NCBI GenBank assembly: GCA_025766275.1
Contig: JAFKAC010000037.1
Span: forward strand, 310,001 to 374,000
Length of the DNA: 64,000 nt
DNA from: Lactarius indigo
Taxonomy: Eukaryota > Basidiomycota > Agaricomycetes > Russulales > Russulaceae
Reading direction: 5' to 3'
Part shown: one piece after another, positions 36,706-44,563 of the stretch
Numbering within the stretch: the first letter of the stretch is position 1
Layout of the letters: each line of letters begins with the position of its first letter
The notes under the pieces: generated by a model
Seen by the model: the letters and a program-made list of their open reading frames with translations, nothing else
Databases searched by the model: none
Told to the model about the DNA's origin: nothing
Made by a program: the position numbers and the translations under genes

Positions 36706-38866
36706 TCACAGTTCACCAGAGCACACACCCTCTACCCACTTCACGTCGCTACGCACCGTGGTGAAATTCTCAAAGCCGTCCGAAGTGATCAGCACGACGT
36801 CCTCAATACGTACCCCGCCCACGGGCTCGTAGCGGGACAGCACCTCGTGGTCGATAAACTCTGAGTTCCGTATCGCGGCGAGCAAATGGTAATGGAAATA
36901 TATGCCTGGCTCGACCGTCTGTGGCTAGTGTCAGTAACGGTCCAGCCACCTACGAAGCAAAGCCCAGGCCGAAGAGCGGACGAGCAAGCAGGAAAGGCAA
37001 AAAAAAAAAAAAAACGATTTGAAAAAAAGACGTACCACGACCATGCCCTCCTCGAGGGGGAGCCGCAACCGCAGGTACTCGTAAAACTTCTCGTGGCTAG
37101 GCTCCGCACTGCTGCCGCTGCCACTACCCTGCGCGATCGTCGGGTTGTGCTCGGGTTTGCTTGCGCTTGGCACATCGTGCACGTCTAGTCCAAGCGAGTG
37201 ACCTACGCCGTGCGGGAAGAACGCCGCGCTCACGCCTGCTGTGAGCAGCGTCGCCTCATCGACACCGGCTCTGAATATCCCAAGCCTCTTGAAGCCCCGC
37301 ACGAGCGTGCGGTGGCACAGCAGCTGCACCGCGTCCCAATGAAGGCCCGGTCTGATTGCCTTGAAGGAGGCCTAAGGGGGAGCGAGGTGTTAGGACACGA
37401 CGAATAGCACGGAAGTGGCTGGGTACCGTTTGCATCTCGAGAACGAGCTCATAGATCGCACGTGCCTCGGGCGTGAATCTGCCACCGTTGCCCACGGGCA
37501 TCGTGCGCGTGACTGTAGCGGCATCAGCGACGAAAGAAGAGAGAGCGACGCGCAATGCCGTGACATACTGTCCGACGCATAGTTGTCCCACTCGCAGCCC
37601 GCGTCGATGAGGAGCACCTGCGGCAGCAACTCCCGCGATCCGCGTGCAAATTCGGTATCATTGGCGTGATCGTGTGCCGCAACGGGTCCCCACGCAAACT
37701 CGCGATCGTTGCAGCAATAGTGCAGCGTCGCCGCGCGCGTGGATGCCGCTACGATCGGTAGGTATGCCTGATGCACGGACCTGCGAGTCATCAGAAGCGG
37801 ACTCACTGAATGAAAGAGAGAAAAGGTGTTCACCCTTCGCGCCGGCACGACGCAACAAAGATCGCCTCGGCCTCGGCCTCCTTCTCGATGAGCCACTCTC
37901 CCGGCAGCGGGATGCGCTTCGCGTCCTGCGTGCCGTCTTGAGGGCCCGCGAGCGCGCGGCGGACGCCGGCGCCAAGCACGCGCATGACGACCTCGTGCGC
38001 GCGCGAGCTGATCGCATTCGCGTGGCGGATGTGTGCGATCTCCGCCGCGGACTTGGTCAGGCGCGCGCGATGCAGCGCGGAGAGGAGGTACGTGGACGTT
38101 TGGCGCGCTGTGGGCGGGAAGGACGGGAGCGTGGGGAACTGCGCGGTCTGCGGGAGCGTGTGGACGTGCGGGTGGACGAACATGCCACCTGTTATTGCGG
38201 CTTGGAGGTTCCCATGAGTGAATAGGCTGCTGGTTGGTCCGCCGGATGTGTGAGCGGGCGCTCTGTGCCCTGCCTTTGCAGCTTGGAGCGCGGCGGCGAG
38301 CGAGGACGCGAAGGAGCTGGTATACAAGACGTCTGTGACGTTGTACGTCTCACGTGCGGCGTCGAGGGTCGGGGGCGGGACGGACCACATCAGGTCAGCT
38401 GGCTCGGCTTCTGGGATGAAGAGCGTGAGGACGGGGTCATCGCATGTAGCAGACGAGGCAGTCAAGAGCAGGAGGGAGGAGGGGACGGAGCAGCCAGTGA
38501 GGTAGACGAAATTGGATTCCTGCGGGTTGTGTAAACTCGGGGAGGGTCACTTCGTTCAGAATGAGCTACGCACCTGTCGAAATGACAGCTCGCGATCCGT
38601 GTCGTTGCGATAAGGTGTCACCGACCCCGCGAGAACAATGATTTGGGGCTGTTTCTCGATTGAGTCTTACGGGTGGTGGAAAAAGAGGATTCGCTTAGAG
38701 TCAATCAATCACCTTTGTCTGTTCTTCGGGAGGCAAAAGCTCAGCAAGCTTTCGGAGAGTCTTCCGTGCATGTTCCTGCGCTGATCATTTGTTTGCCTTA
38801 ATCTATGAGCTAACTGAAGGATTTAATGCCCCTACCAGGATATGCCATTTGCAAGTCGTCTGTAAA
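36706..38866 (-). CDS. M24 metallopeptidase (Xaa-Pro peptidase/prolidase type), copy 2
   Basis: A dimetal aminopeptidase/dipeptidase acting on Xaa-Pro bonds (family knowledge). Six exons (38574-38666, 37834-38519, 37569-37780, 37427-37512, 37036-37371, 36706-36918) splice without a break into 541 residues. The five metal ligands sit in [38 protein letters not shown] and [10 protein letters not shown]. The N-terminal domain contains [12 protein letters not shown] and NFVYLTGC. The 5' end is unresolved. An upstream block (38713-38775) reads [19 protein letters not shown], but the GT-AG junction to the next exon is off by one base, and no in-frame ATG is found before 38,866. Either a non-obvious splice is used or this copy too has begun to decay. 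It is head-to-head with the NLR gene. Confidence 0.78.
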
Positions 38867-39037
38867 CGATGAGCGCCACGCAGATCAACGAGAGAAATGT
38901 AGATAAGTTACGTACTGGTGATCGTGTTGCGGTCTCACAAGGGGGTCAACCGTACTTGCCTTTTACGGTGTTGAGGCGATCGAACCAACTCAACCAAGAA
39001 CTCAACAGCACTTGGAACGACGACGTCGAGTCAAAAT
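38867..39037. promoter_or_regulatory. short bidirectional promoter between M24 and NLR genes
   Basis: Only about 170 bases separate the M24 5' region from the NLR start codon. The same divergent arrangement and related sequence are kept in the first, decayed cassette (31,900-32,030; ATGATCACCA, CAAAGTATGCAA against CAAAATATGCAA). A shared promoter is the simplest reading. No defined factor site is recognised. Confidence 0.45.
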
Positions 39038-42000
39038 ATGCAATCTAACTCATCTTTCTCCACCAAACCCGGGCGCAGGAAGAATCCTACTCCGTTCAAT
39101 TCGTCAGTCCGTGAGTGTGTTTATACATTCAATTTCTTTTTCGTCTAATCCGTTGGCCTTAACCGTTAGCTGACGACGATCCGGCCTCATCCAATCCGAT
39201 CGGTGGATCCACCGACGTCGCGATGAGTACGATAGAAACGTCTCTCAAAGTTCTCAAGGAGACAAGTGCTTTGGCCTCCAAGGTTCCCTTCATCGGGCCC
39301 ATCGCAGGCATCATACTCGAAGCGCTCAAGATGCGCGGTGTATGTCTCTCGCCACTTTCCTCTCCGTTTTGAGTGCTTGAGTCCTCATGAGCGGTGTGTA
39401 GGAGGTAAAACAGTTAAAGGGAGAGTGGGGCGCCGTTATGCAAAAGCTCGCCAAGGTTGGGAGCATCGTCGTCGATGTCGGAGAGTGGTATCAGGCCAAC
39501 GACATGAGCGAGGACGATCTCCCATCCGATCTACGCAACGTCCTGAAGTCCCTTCAAACGTATGTTCCATCCGCCTCCCTCTTCTCTGACCCTACTTTCT
39601 GACCGTTTCGAAGCGACTTGGACGGGATCCAAGATGTGCTGGAAGAGTGCGCAAAGGTGAAAGGAGTCCGGAGGGTCCTTTTACGCTCGGATATACTGGC
39701 GAAGGTCAAGCAATACGACGCAAAATTGACCCACGCCTTTCAAGTATTCCAGGTCCGTTTCAAAACGATCCTCCTCGACCGAACTAATTTTGCCAAAGGC
39801 CCGAGTTGCGCTTGGTAATCGTTTGGCGCAAATTGTCCAAGAGCACAGGGTTCGTCGATCACCCACTTGGGTCGTTGGTGGTAGCGGGTGTTTGATTTTT
39901 TCCAAAGGTCAATTCTCTTGCCGCAACCGCGGCTATTAACGCGAGGGCGAGGGAGCGTATGACGCATATTCCTCCGGATAGTGGCGCAGATTCAACCTAT
40001 CTTACCGAGTAAGATTCTCCCATCTTCACTCCTTGTGCGAACGCACACTGATATTTCATAGGTCTCTCGCGCCGATACCGTTCTTTGAACGTGACGCAGA
40101 GCTTGCTCAGATCATCGAGACGATTTTCGTTGACACTACGTCGCGTCCTGCCCGCATTGCAATTCTTGGCCCTGGGGGTTATGGCAAGACCACTCTCGCT
40201 CTTGCGGTGCTCGATCATCCCCGTGTTCGAGAGCACTATGGAGATGCTAGATATATGGTCGCTTGTGGATCACTTGTGTCTTCTTCGGCTCTTCTGATTC
40301 AGCTCGCAAAGACACTGGGTATCTCAAAGGAAGACTCCGATTTCTTGTGGTCTCGTACTCGTGCATCGTTGATCGCGGAGGACTGTATCGTCTGCTTTGA
40401 TAATTTTGAGTCGCCCTGGGATCAGCCCGGAGACATAAAAGCCTCCGTTGAGGACTTGCTGTCCATTATCACGGAGCTTCATCATGTCACCGTCATTATC
40501 ACTATGCGAGGCACAGAGAGGCCCGCAGGAACACAGTGGACACGACCGACCTTGGCTCCTCTGAAGACCCTTAACTCGGATGCGGTTGGTGTACCCGTCG
40601 ATTCCATCATGTTCGGGATCAAAACGTCTCTCGACAACCTTAAAGATGCAAGTCCCCTGGCGTCCAAGGTCCCTTATATCTCGCGGATCGCTGGGATGCT
40701 ACTCTATACAATCCAATTGTACGGTGTACGTGCCCCTTCACTATTTTGAGGGCTATTTCCGTTGACGATCAATAATCGTGCGATTAGGAAGTTCGACGGT
40801 TCAAAGAGGAGTGGGCGGTAGTAGCGAATAAGCTCGTCGACGTTGCGAATGTTGTTATCGGTGTCGGGAACTCGTACGAAATGCACGAGTTGGGCGAAGA
40901 AGATCTTATTGATTTGCAGACGGACGTACAGTACCTTCAAAGGTGTGTTGAGTTCATCCCGAGCACTTGTTTACATCATCTAACCCACGACTAGGGGTCT
41001 GGAGGAGATCGAAGGAATGCTCAAGGAGTGCAGCGATTACGGAAGGATCACGGTGTTACAGCGCGTGGAGGTTCAAACGAAGGTCAAACAATGCGACGAC
41101 ATATTATCACGTGCACTTGATGCCTTCCAGGTTCGTCTTCAGCCACGGCATCCTCCTCGTAGTTCATCTAATTGATCCCTGGGGGCTCGTAAACGAAGGC
41201 GCCCTCTCGTATTCGCTCTACGCAGTCTACGCAGCCTACTCAAGGCCGTGAGGTACACCGTATTTTTACTTTGAGCGGTTTTAGATTTAAGTTGATTGAC
41301 CAATCCATAGGTCAACACTGTCGCCGGCTACAAATCGTCGGATCGGATCCGTGAGTGCAACTTATGACTGACTTCCGCCCGTAGCTTATGGATGTTGGTT
41401 AGCTTTCGGTGATTCCCCTGAGGATTTTCCTGCTGCGTCGGACGCGGTTGGTGGATCTGTCGACACCATCATGTCCGCGGTCCAAACGTCTCTCGACATA
41501 CTCAAGGAGGCCAGTTCCCTGGCGTCCAAGGTCCCTTGTATCTTCTCGATTGCTGAGATGCTACTCTACGCGATCCAAGTACACAGCGTACGTGCCCTTC
41601 ACGAATTCGGGAGCCTTGTTTGTCGATGATCGATGGTCGTGTGATTAGGAGGTTCGACAGTTCAAAGAGGACTGGACGGTAGTAGTACAGAGGCTCCTCG
41701 AAGTTGCGAATATCGTCATCAGTGTCGGGAAGTCATGCGAAACCCATTGGCTGGGCGAGGAAGACCTTCCTCATTTGGAAAAGGCCTTGCAGCCCCTCCA
41801 GAAGTGCGTTGAATCCATCCCGAGCAGTTGTGTTTACTACACCTTCTGACCTACGCAAAGGAGCCTGAAAACGATCGGACGAATGCTCGAGGAATGCGCT
41901 GATTACGGAGCAATCAAGGTGTTGCAGCGCGCGGACATTCAAACGAAGGTCAAACAATGCGACAGCATGTTATCGCATGAACTCCATATCTTCCAGGTTC

Positions 42001-44366
42001 GTCCGAACTATAGTATCCTCCTCGCCGTTCGTCTGATCAATCCCCCTGGGTTCGAAGACAAAGTTGGCTCTTCATATACACTTTACGCAGCTTATTCAGC
42101 TTATCCAAAGCCGACCGGTACACTCCATTTCTTCTCTGAGAGGTTTTAGTTAATCTATCAATCCTTAGGTCAACGCTGTCGCCGTCGCCGTCAGCTCGTC
42201 AGCGGCGGGATCCACTGGGAACATTACGTAAGTCCATCTCTGCGCCTTTTCTTGTCCATTAGGTCCTCATATGTCTCGCCTAGGACTGTGTTGTCCAAGG
42301 CGCCCAAACCATCGGCACCCCAATTATTCTTTGGACGTGATCCCGAGCTTAATCAGATCCTCGACATGATTTTCGGGCCTCGTCCTGCTCGCATCGCCAT
42401 CTTGGGACCCGGTGGTTGTGGGAAGACTACTCTTGCGAACGCGGTGCTCGCCCATCGTCGCATTCGTGAGCGCTTTGGTGACGCGAGATATTTCGTCGCC
42501 TGTGAATCCGCCACTACGTCCGCCGACCTCTTGGTCGAGCTCGTGAAGGCTCTAGGCCTGTTAGACGCCGGCGACGCATCTTGGTCCCATATAAAGACCT
42601 CGCTGACGAAGAAGAAGTGTATAATCTGTCTCGATAACTTTGAGTCGCCTTGGGACCAGGCCGCTGAGATACGACATTCAGTCGAAGACCTGCTCTCCAA
42701 GATTACGTCGCTGCGCGACATCACAGTGCTTGTTACCATGCGTGGCACTGAGAGGCCCGATCGGACCCACTGGACACAGCCTGCTCTAGCTCCGTTGAAG
42801 ATCCTTGATAATCACGCGGCTCAAGTAGCCCGGCAGCGTATTGCCAATAAATTTGATAGCTCCGCTAAGCAACTTATCGCGGCAGTAAGCAATGTTTCGT
42901 TTGCGGTCAACGTGTTGGCTCACTGCGCTCAGGCCACGTCGTCGCCTGCGTTGTTGTTGAAGGAGTGGAAAGGAAAGTACACCCGGCTTGTTCAAAGGGA
43001 TCGTTCCCATAGACTCTCAAACTTGGAGTCCTCTATCCAGCTCTCTCTTAATAGCAAACGGATGAGAGATAATCCCGCGGCTAGGCAGTTACTTGGCGTG
43101 CTAAGCGTGCTCCCGGACGGCATTCACACGGAACTTCTGGACAAATTTAAAGGTGTACTCGACATCGACATTCTATCGTGTCTGCGCGTCCTCCAGAAAT
43201 GTAGCCTTGTTGAAGTTACCACAGAGAGATATCGAAGTCTTTCCATTATCCGTCACTTTTGCCTCAGTCAGGGCCTTCTGCTACCAAGGCACGAAGAGCT
43301 ATTAAACAATTTTTACATCGCTCTGGCGATGACACATAGATATCAAGCAGGCTGTTATGATTATGCGGAGATGGTGCTAGAGGCAAATAACACCAAGGCT
43401 ACCCTGTCTAGACTTTTGAAGTCAAACTATCAGGATCAATCCATGCTTGTCAATGCTGTTCTGATATTTGTCAACTTCTGCATGAACATTGGAGACTACA
43501 GTGATCAGCTGCTGGATGGAGCCATCAAATTTATACAGCAAAATCATCTTTCCATATCATTGGAAATAGGCTGTCTTCAGCACTGGGGAAGACTCCTTTA
43601 CCGCACACATGATTTAGAAAATGCCAAACTCAAGTTACAAGCAGCAGAGGTACTTTGCTTGTCAAGTTTAAATCATAACAAGATTTTGCATGCCAAGATT
43701 TTAAGAGATCTTGGTGACATCTACCTTGATCAAGGGGCAACAATTGGAGCAGAAGCTGTATTTCAAACAGCTTTGCAATTGTCTGGGGCAGCCAATGATG
43801 CCTTAGAACAAGGAAATTGTTATTTCAAACTTGGGGGCATATATATGATGCTCCAGAGATTACAAGAAGCTAGTGCTGCCTACAGTAAAGCCTTGGAGTT
43901 TCATAAGGCCCTTGATGATAATGTTGGCCAAGGAAGTGATCATAGGGGGCTGGGTGATATCCAGCTACAGCTGCAGAAGTTCAATGATGCAGAAGCCTCC
44001 TATCAAAAGGCCCTGGAATTTGACAAAGCGGCCAACTCTGTGCGGGGCCAAGCAAAGGATTTTAAAGCACTAGGAAATACTTATCTACAGAAAGATAAGT
44101 TAGACGAAGCCGAAGCCTTTTTCGATAACGCTCTTATGCTTTATAAGGCCATAAACTCTTTGTCGGGTCAAGGCAATACATTATATGACTTGGCCAAAAT
44201 ATATTTAAAGAGGTCGCGGCTGGAGGACGCTAGGACGGCAATCGAAAGGGCACTGGACATGCATAAACAAGCACAAGATAAGGCGGGAGAGAAGATGGAT
44301 CGGAGGCTGCTGGATGAGATCCTATCTCGGGACGGCGTACTTGTTGCTGATGGGGAGAGGCAATAA
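39038..44366 (+). CDS. multi-module NLR-like protein: 3 MLKL-NTD-like bundles, partial NTPase, NB-ARC, TPR
   Basis: Fifteen exons splice in one frame to 1,434 residues: 39038-39110, 39170-39339, 39402-39559, 39614-39752, 39799-39849, 39908-40008, 40062-40725, 40788-40942, 40995-41130, 41311-41350, 41403-41587, 41649-41803, 41861-41996, 42169-42227, 42284-44366. Residues about 40-197 form a helical module (SALASKVPFIGPIAGI, EVKQLKGEWGAV, ILAKVKQYD) like the MLKL N-terminal bundle found in Agaricomycete proteins. Residues 231-405 carry a P-loop (GPGGYGKTT, 267-275) and Walker B (IVCFDN) but no ARC. Two further helical modules follow (about 406-549, 563-721). Then comes a second P-loop (GPGGCGKTT, 782-790), Walker B (IICLDN), TMRGTERP, a winged-helix-like part and about six TPRs (about 1165-1415). 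Paired exons in modules 2 and 3 have equal lengths (155/155, 136/136). Three separate genes remain possible. Function in incompatibility or cell death is inference. Confidence 0.8.
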
Positions 44367-44563
44367 GGCATATAACAAGTTCGTGAAGCACTAATAGTAA
44401 GTTGATGTAACAGTAGCAGGTATGCGGTAGTCGTCAATGACTCGTCATGAGTGTCTTTGGCTCGTACTAGTATTGGTACAACAGCAGAACTCGATTGCGG
44501 TTCGTCGTTGTCATCACTCGGGCTAATGTGGCGTTGGAAAGGCGCCTGATGAAATCAGCTCAT

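Follow-up and report, generated by a model that had tools for sequence, protein, structure and literature searches.

The closest precedent that we can suggest, by analogy of architecture, for the gene described here is the TNTNL/TTNL class of plant NOD-like receptors (NLRs), e.g. Arabidopsis RPP2A (PMC3782705; PMC2175511), and RPP2a has been reported to be functional in resistance (PMC3782705). Among fungal NLRs, two-domain N-termini such as C2-Goodbye are mentioned (PMC9815663). In Aspergillus fumigatus the het genes, including the NACHT-ankyrin gene hetE, are under ancient balancing selection (PMC11138114), and somatic incompatibility in basidiomycetes is described as poorly understood, with models taken from ascomycetes (PMC8229728). 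No report of fungal tandem bundle NLRs was found in the open-licence literature. In this work we analyzed a stretch of 64,000 nucleotides from Lactarius indigo (the window), i.e. bases 310001-374000 of contig C223 (600,800 bases) in a genome of 90 Mb and 291 contigs, and describe within it a gene, gene A, in which three bundle modules and an extra half NTPase stand in one reading frame with an NB-ARC-TPR receptor. We propose, with a probability that we put at about 0.5, that gene A is a real chimeric fungal NLR that arose by two-step unequal recombination, that its diverged allelic forms are probably kept by balancing selection, and that it is an immune or allorecognition gene.

Results

Gene model and domains of gene A

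Gene A is composed of 15 exons and 14 introns, all of them GT-AG, in an open frame encoding 1,434 amino acids (aa), which reproduces exactly the model put forward in an earlier sequence-only reading of this DNA. A variant without the 17-codon exon 39799-39849 has 13 introns and encodes 1,417 aa, and a variant with the added small exons 41199-41252 and 42058-42117 has 16 introns and encodes 1,472 aa, its frame still open. The domain order is bundle M1, half NTPase, M2, M3, NB-ARC and TPR (in the 1,434-aa model: M1 36-181, nucleotide-binding domain (NBD) lobe 234-409, M2 408-553, M3 579-725 and second NBD 751-923, followed by ARC and TPR). The earlier reading had assigned the DNA to Polyporales, an origin that is ruled out: residues of the public L. 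indigo protein P0001 match the 3' half of gene A, and Lactarius belongs to Russulales. The features, in window positions, are as follows.

39038..44366, + strand: whole reading frame of gene A, from splice sites and frame (variants of 1,417 and 1,472 aa)
39038-39110, 39170-39339, 39402-39559, 39614-39752, 39799-39849, 39908-40008, 40062-40725, 40788-40942, + strand: exons 1-8
40995-41130, 41311-41350, 41403-41587, 41649-41803, 41861-41996, 42169-42227, 42284-44366, + strand: exons 9-15
39202..39752, + strand: bundle module M1 (aa 36-181), lineage alpha by the bundle tree; ratio of nonsynonymous to synonymous rates (dN/dS) 0.17 between haplotypes
39799..39849, + strand: small exon ARVALGNRLAQIVQEHR (17 codons), shared with P0086 and P0087 and with similar counterparts in P0085 and P0089
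40069..40596, + strand: half NTPase without ARC (NBD lobe, aa 234-409); Walker A (GPGGYGKT) and Walker B present
40570..40620, + strand: junction 1 (lobe to M2) within exon 40062-40725, the same join as in the C268 allele, P0085 and P0089
40591..41130, + strand: bundle module M2 (aa 408 to about 549 over these positions), lineage beta by the bundle tree
41199..41252, + strand: optional small exon after M2, 18 codons, GT-AG
41311..41350, + strand: chimeric exon, junction 2; its acceptor side resembles the A' M2 linker exon and its donor side exon 1 of gene B, whose ATG it lacks
41450..41996, + strand: bundle module M3, lineage beta, with GAG (Glu) of helix 1 at 41555-41557
41471..41473, + strand: ATG at which the public model P0001 (853 aa) begins
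42058..42117, + strand: optional small exon after M3, 20 codons, included in P0001
42312..43046, + strand: second NBD and NB-ARC (Pfam NB-ARC match, 746-978 in 1,417-aa numbering)
42885..42932, + strand: 48-bp stretch across the GLPL motif, spliced out as an intron in P0001; the GLPL Pro is Ser in gene A
43731..44270, + strand: TPR region (Pfam TPR_MalT match)

The domain bounds rest on bundle and NTPase profiles for which the gene A and A' modules served as input; with these, M1 reaches 247 bits, M2 246 and M3 257, and the NTPase parts reach 335 and 328, scores that are circular because the profiles derive from the same modules. Independent of these profiles, Pfam NB-ARC (8.7e-15) and TPR_12 (3.5e-21) match gene A above their cut-offs, and the P-loop and Walker B motifs of an NB-ARC NTPase are found in both NTPase parts. 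The half NTPase stops shortly after the TMRG motif and has no ARC, in agreement with the extra P-loop NTPase without ARC that the earlier reading had noted. Walker A is GxxxxGKT in gene A, its allele A', P0085 and P0089, and the TMRG Arg is Gln in A'. The protein searches scored 7991, 7995 and 2058 candidates, and 84 proteins, the best 120 of 272, and 10 proteins were listed from them. As further independent support, a bundle hit above 20 bits stands before an NTPase part or between two (M-NB, M-NB-M, M-M-NB) in 66 of 166 proteins, and the NTPase or bundle hit is split in 13 further ones. Rfam at gathering thresholds and ARAGORN gave zero matches over the window.

In AlphaFold2 models of the relatives P0169 and P0085, which were modelled in place of gene A, the bundles and the NBD lobe come out as folded domains, with five helices in P0169 and in each P0085 module (mean pLDDT 70.5 and 69.3). 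The modules of gene A are thus predicted helical bundles, as had been claimed, with the extra first helix known from BaMLKL, and they might act in membrane killing. Pfam DUF7032 gives 31.0 bits on the whole gene A protein (cut-off 27), 21.6 on M1 alone and 16.6 on M3 alone; isolated M2 gave no DUF7032 match, and RPW8 matches M1 at E 0.027. In Foldseek, the best chains for the bundle are plant NLR coiled-coil domains, none with a significant E-value. The MLKL link proposed earlier is suggested by fold class and literature; no significant fold match was obtained, and M1 and M3 taken singly stay below the DUF7032 cut-off.

Fusion of the NBD lobe to M2 and the allele A'

The step from the lobe to M2 (fusion 1) sits within one exon, 40062-40725, and requires no splice prediction. 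The order bundle-NTPase-bundle was found in three of the 166 proteins, namely P0085 (L. pseudohatsudake, 566 aa), P0087 (L. indigo, contig C268) and P0089 (L. quietus); the last two stop within the second bundle in their public models. The alignment places the join at about the same position in gene A, the C268 allele, P0085 and P0089. Since it is present also in the other haplotype, in L. pseudohatsudake and in L. quietus, fusion 1 is old. The comparison of A with A' gives M1 a dN/dS of 0.17, the lobe one of 0.45 and M2 one of 0.49, each with a significant synonymous excess (p 3e-8, 3e-4 and 2e-3, respectively, from rounded counts); because both alleles carry fusion 1, the selection indicated by these values acted after it. 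A chance open frame was considered and ruled out for fusion 1 by its position inside one exon, its presence in three species and dN/dS below 1.

C268 (283,221 bases, the source of P0087) is collinear with C223 over tens of kb at about 95-98% identity, and we take the two contigs to be the two nuclear haplotypes of one dikaryon. The allele A' on C268 has 10 exons and encodes 893 aa in the order M1-NBD-M2-NBD followed by a tail, and no ARC-TPR match was found within the 9.9 kb read on C268; the two haplotypes are therefore unlike not in sequence alone but in architecture too. The A' tail (L010:6072-7195, C268) has at least 92 matching places in the genome, itself included, and at one of them, L036 (an incomplete 708-aa frame), a search of the first 277 residues found Pfam DUF6535 (9e-34) ahead of the matching part. 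As an observation in its own right, the tail belongs to a large family of L. indigo frames, one of them with DUF6535, and represents another domain capture at the gene A locus.

The divergence between the haplotypes, which lay beyond the view of the sequence-only reading, is to our mind the most informative feature of the locus, and it is local. Among 156 aligned 500-bp intervals (unaligned stretches left out), the six covering 38501-41500 show identities of 0.765-0.899 between the haplotypes, and the other 150 have a minimum of 0.917 and a median of 0.982; strong local allele divergence, as expected of het loci, is thus present at gene A. Behind the gene, the region from 42 to 48.5 kb of the window has no simple counterpart on C268.

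Two NLR lineages and non-sister alleles

In the bundle tree, M1 groups with P0086 and P0009 of L. quietus, and M2 and M3 group with P0002, P0005, P0011, P0015 and P0130, which indicates that two NLR lineages are joined in gene A, M1 being of lineage alpha and M2 and M3 of lineage beta. P0009, P0089 and P0015 of L. quietus each come from a 46,132-base contig, so that alpha, fused and beta genes probably adjoin one another in that species.

In the M1-lobe tree, A and P0085 of L. pseudohatsudake form a group with 100/99 support that leaves out A', and M2 of A likewise falls with P0085 at 99/97. A clade of A and A' is rejected for M1-lobe (p-AU 0.003) by an approximately unbiased (AU) test that was run after the tree had been seen and that compares one dikaryon with one foreign sequence; for M2, a clade of A, A' and P0085 is not rejected (p 0.21). 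M1 alone separates little, A being 88% identical to A' and 89% identical to P0085. The grouping of the window allele with L. pseudohatsudake rather than with its own partner would fit trans-species alleles.

Joining of M2 to M3

The M2 to M3 join (fusion 2) is found in the window haplotype only. Window positions 41347-44466 match gene B' on C268 (173971-177082) at 91%, and the last exon of gene A shares 90% aa identity with gene B on C223 at a dN/dS of 0.31. Gene B begins with ATGTCTGTAATCC ahead of its first donor, and P0002 of L. hengduanensis has a like start (MSLIPFGD). At junction 2 of gene A the gene B start codon and the sequence preceding it are gone, and the gene B donor and intron are retained. 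On its acceptor side the 40-bp exon 41311-41350 is the counterpart of the A' M2 linker exon, and it is thus a chimera, in phase, of two exons from sister genes. An in-phase join has a chance of 1/3 by itself. The last exon has 12 matches in the genome, and of the close ones only gene A was found in frame with a bundle. These features indicate that a neighbouring complete NLR copy, without its start codon and upstream region, was joined in phase within the 40-bp exon, and one transcript would be expected to cross junction 2.

Gene B and the surroundings of gene A

Genes B (L009, C223 at about 376.1-379.2 kb) and B' (L011, C268 at about 174.0-177.0 kb) have a common frameshift in the bundle exon and, under homologous splicing, run into stops before the NTPase; the NB-ARC-TPR exon is open in B and has two extra one-base insertions in B'. 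Relative to gene B, the in-frame 48-bp stretch 42885-42932 of gene A has gained a GTAAGC donor, and its removal in P0001 is possibly a new intron or an error of the public model. Directly left of gene A, on the minus strand, 37256-38546 holds aminopeptidase P-like fragments (AMP_N above the cut-off, Peptidase_M24 below). Stretches similar to this left flank occur elsewhere on C223 and C268, and a piece in inverted orientation lies to the right of the gene. Gene B stands within a 28-kb tract (C223 358446-386183, C268 156279-183987) that is 98% identical between the contigs and is bounded by inverted repeats of about 1.6 kb.

Elsewhere in the genome, bundle exons are clustered on C168, C226, C270, C117, C243, C2, C215 and C110, with at least 93 exon matches to M1. 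A second fused locus was not found on C243 and C2, where two-module pairs about 1.7 kb apart have no NTPase above 25 bits between the modules, the clusters on C168, C226, C270 and C117 being unread; the only NTPase remnant of the C243 and C2 pairs lies behind the second module. P0092, P0104 and P0047 were rejected as two-bundle proteins, because in each of them a single module is interrupted by gaps or lacks pieces. The public model of P0093 (Russula vinacea, 744 aa) reads M-M-NTPase, which may be a tandem of independent origin or an artefact of the model.

Discussion

On the observed frame, splice sites, modules, common fusion 1, local divergence and non-sister alleles we base the proposal of a chimeric NLR, in which a single transcript across junction 2, bundle activity, cell death, balancing selection and allorecognition are inferred. 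The fusion of one NLR head, an additional N-terminal module and a complete NLR, which the sequence-only reading had claimed, is present at the sequence level in one frame; it is to be read as two events of different age rather than as one assembly, and the three bundles, which had been treated as one related set, separate in the bundle tree into M1 from one NLR lineage and M2 and M3 from another.

Several observations weigh against the proposal, in addition to the limits of the allele comparison given above. The public annotation splits gene A, P0001 beginning at the M3 methionine (41471); P0085 terminates soon after M2; and fusion 2, confined to one haplotype, rests on a 40-bp exon. The GLPL Pro is Ser in gene A and Pro in all 98 relatives with a residue at that place, and M3 helix 1 carries a Glu at a position held by Gly in 67 of 73 relatives and by Glu in none (0/73); both changes point to functional loss in the 3' half. 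MLKL chains are absent among the fold matches listed by Foldseek for the bundle, although kinship may still exist. The GLPL change weakens the claim of a normally regulated NB-ARC, not that of NLR descent, and because M3 and GLPL differ at near-invariant residues, three equal effectors are unlikely. The MHD-like His is Leu in gene A, which says little because 28 of 87 aligned relatives share the Leu.

The likeliest rival explains the allele divergence, in place of balancing selection, by non-allelic conversion or by turnover of copies within an NLR cluster rich in repeats, A and A' being effectively paralogues at one place, and we regard it as a serious possibility, if somewhat doubtful. The surroundings are indeed repeat-rich (stretches like the left flank on both haplotypes, the inverted piece on the right and the 28-kb tract with its inverted repeats), and the comparison comprises one dikaryon and one foreign protein; however, both alleles belong, together with the left flank, to a single collinear block (C223 344543-351323, C268 136806-143478), and identity falls stepwise toward the gene, from 0.964 in the 500-bp interval at 38001 down to 0.765. 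Next comes the division into two genes implied by the public annotation, i.e. one gene for a short M1-lobe-M2 protein and another for a complete NLR whose first residue is the M3 methionine, where not only P0001 but also the models of several relatives, e.g. P0014, P0015 and P0017, begin, and which the end of P0085 soon after M2 would suit; we consider it rather unlikely, as the gene B start ATGTCTGTAATCC and the sequence upstream of it are gone at junction 2 and the acceptor and donor of the 40-bp exon are each homologous to a sister-gene site, in a phase that chance alone would give in one case out of three. That gene A is recombination debris on its way to a pseudogene, its open frame young or lucky, agrees with the GLPL and M3 changes and with the broken neighbours B and B' and is nevertheless improbable given dN/dS well below 1 in every part tested, a fusion 1 common to three species and zero stops across 1,434 codons.

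In the proposed origin of the chimeric NLR, unequal recombination in an NLR cluster would first have fused a lineage-alpha head (M1 and NBD lobe) to M2 of a lineage-beta NLR; later, on the window haplotype, M2 would have been followed by an almost complete NLR of lineage beta, a copy akin to gene B. In its working, the TPR part might sense a partner and the NB-ARC oligomerise, so that the attached bundles, up to three on a single subunit, would come together at a membrane and make it permeable, the action proposed for HeLo/MLKL/RPW8 domains. M1 would be the likeliest active bundle and executioner because it is the most constrained (dN/dS 0.17); the lobe and M2 may add interfaces, with M3 and the GLPL latch partly decayed, and the lobe may provide a contact that depends on nucleotide or bring the A and A' products together. 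The locus is a candidate self/non-self recognition gene, because the presumed partner nucleus carries a very unlike gene. A more far-reaching and, in our estimate, improbable version makes it a somatic-incompatibility or dikaryon-policing gene with trans-species alleles of unlike architecture, whose products would co-assemble via their common heads with an outcome set by the meeting alleles; one allele would tether killer bundles in an array, together with an NTPase lobe and a TPR sensor, and the other would be a sensor-less M-NTPase-M-NTPase.

The locus is compact, with two extreme allelic forms, one of them close to the gene of another species, and is directly testable, and the retained NBD lobe without ARC offers a natural test of the action of this lobe alone. 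If our reading is correct, gene A might be a fungal counterpart of the plant tandem NLRs, joining the bundle heads of two NLR lineages. As in TNTNL/TTNL receptors such as RPP2A, an N-terminal signalling domain and an NTPase are repeated ahead of a complete NLR in one gene, which for gene A is seen at the level of the sequence, the public model P0001 splitting the gene; the plant receptors differ from it in having TIR and LRR, where the fungal gene has helical bundles and TPR. With the basidiomycete BaMLKL NLRs (PMC9815663) it shares the helical-bundle head with an extra first helix, the NTPase and the superstructure repeats, but those NLRs, as described there, have one head each, whereas gene A has three bundles and an additional NBD lobe. 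Finally, gene A resembles hetA, hetC, hetD and hetE of A. fumigatus (PMC11138114) in the narrow, one-gene footprint of divergence and perhaps in alleles shared across species; unlike those ascomycete genes, which were mapped genetically and of which three were expression-tested, it is a basidiomycete gene known from two haplotypes and one foreign sequence.

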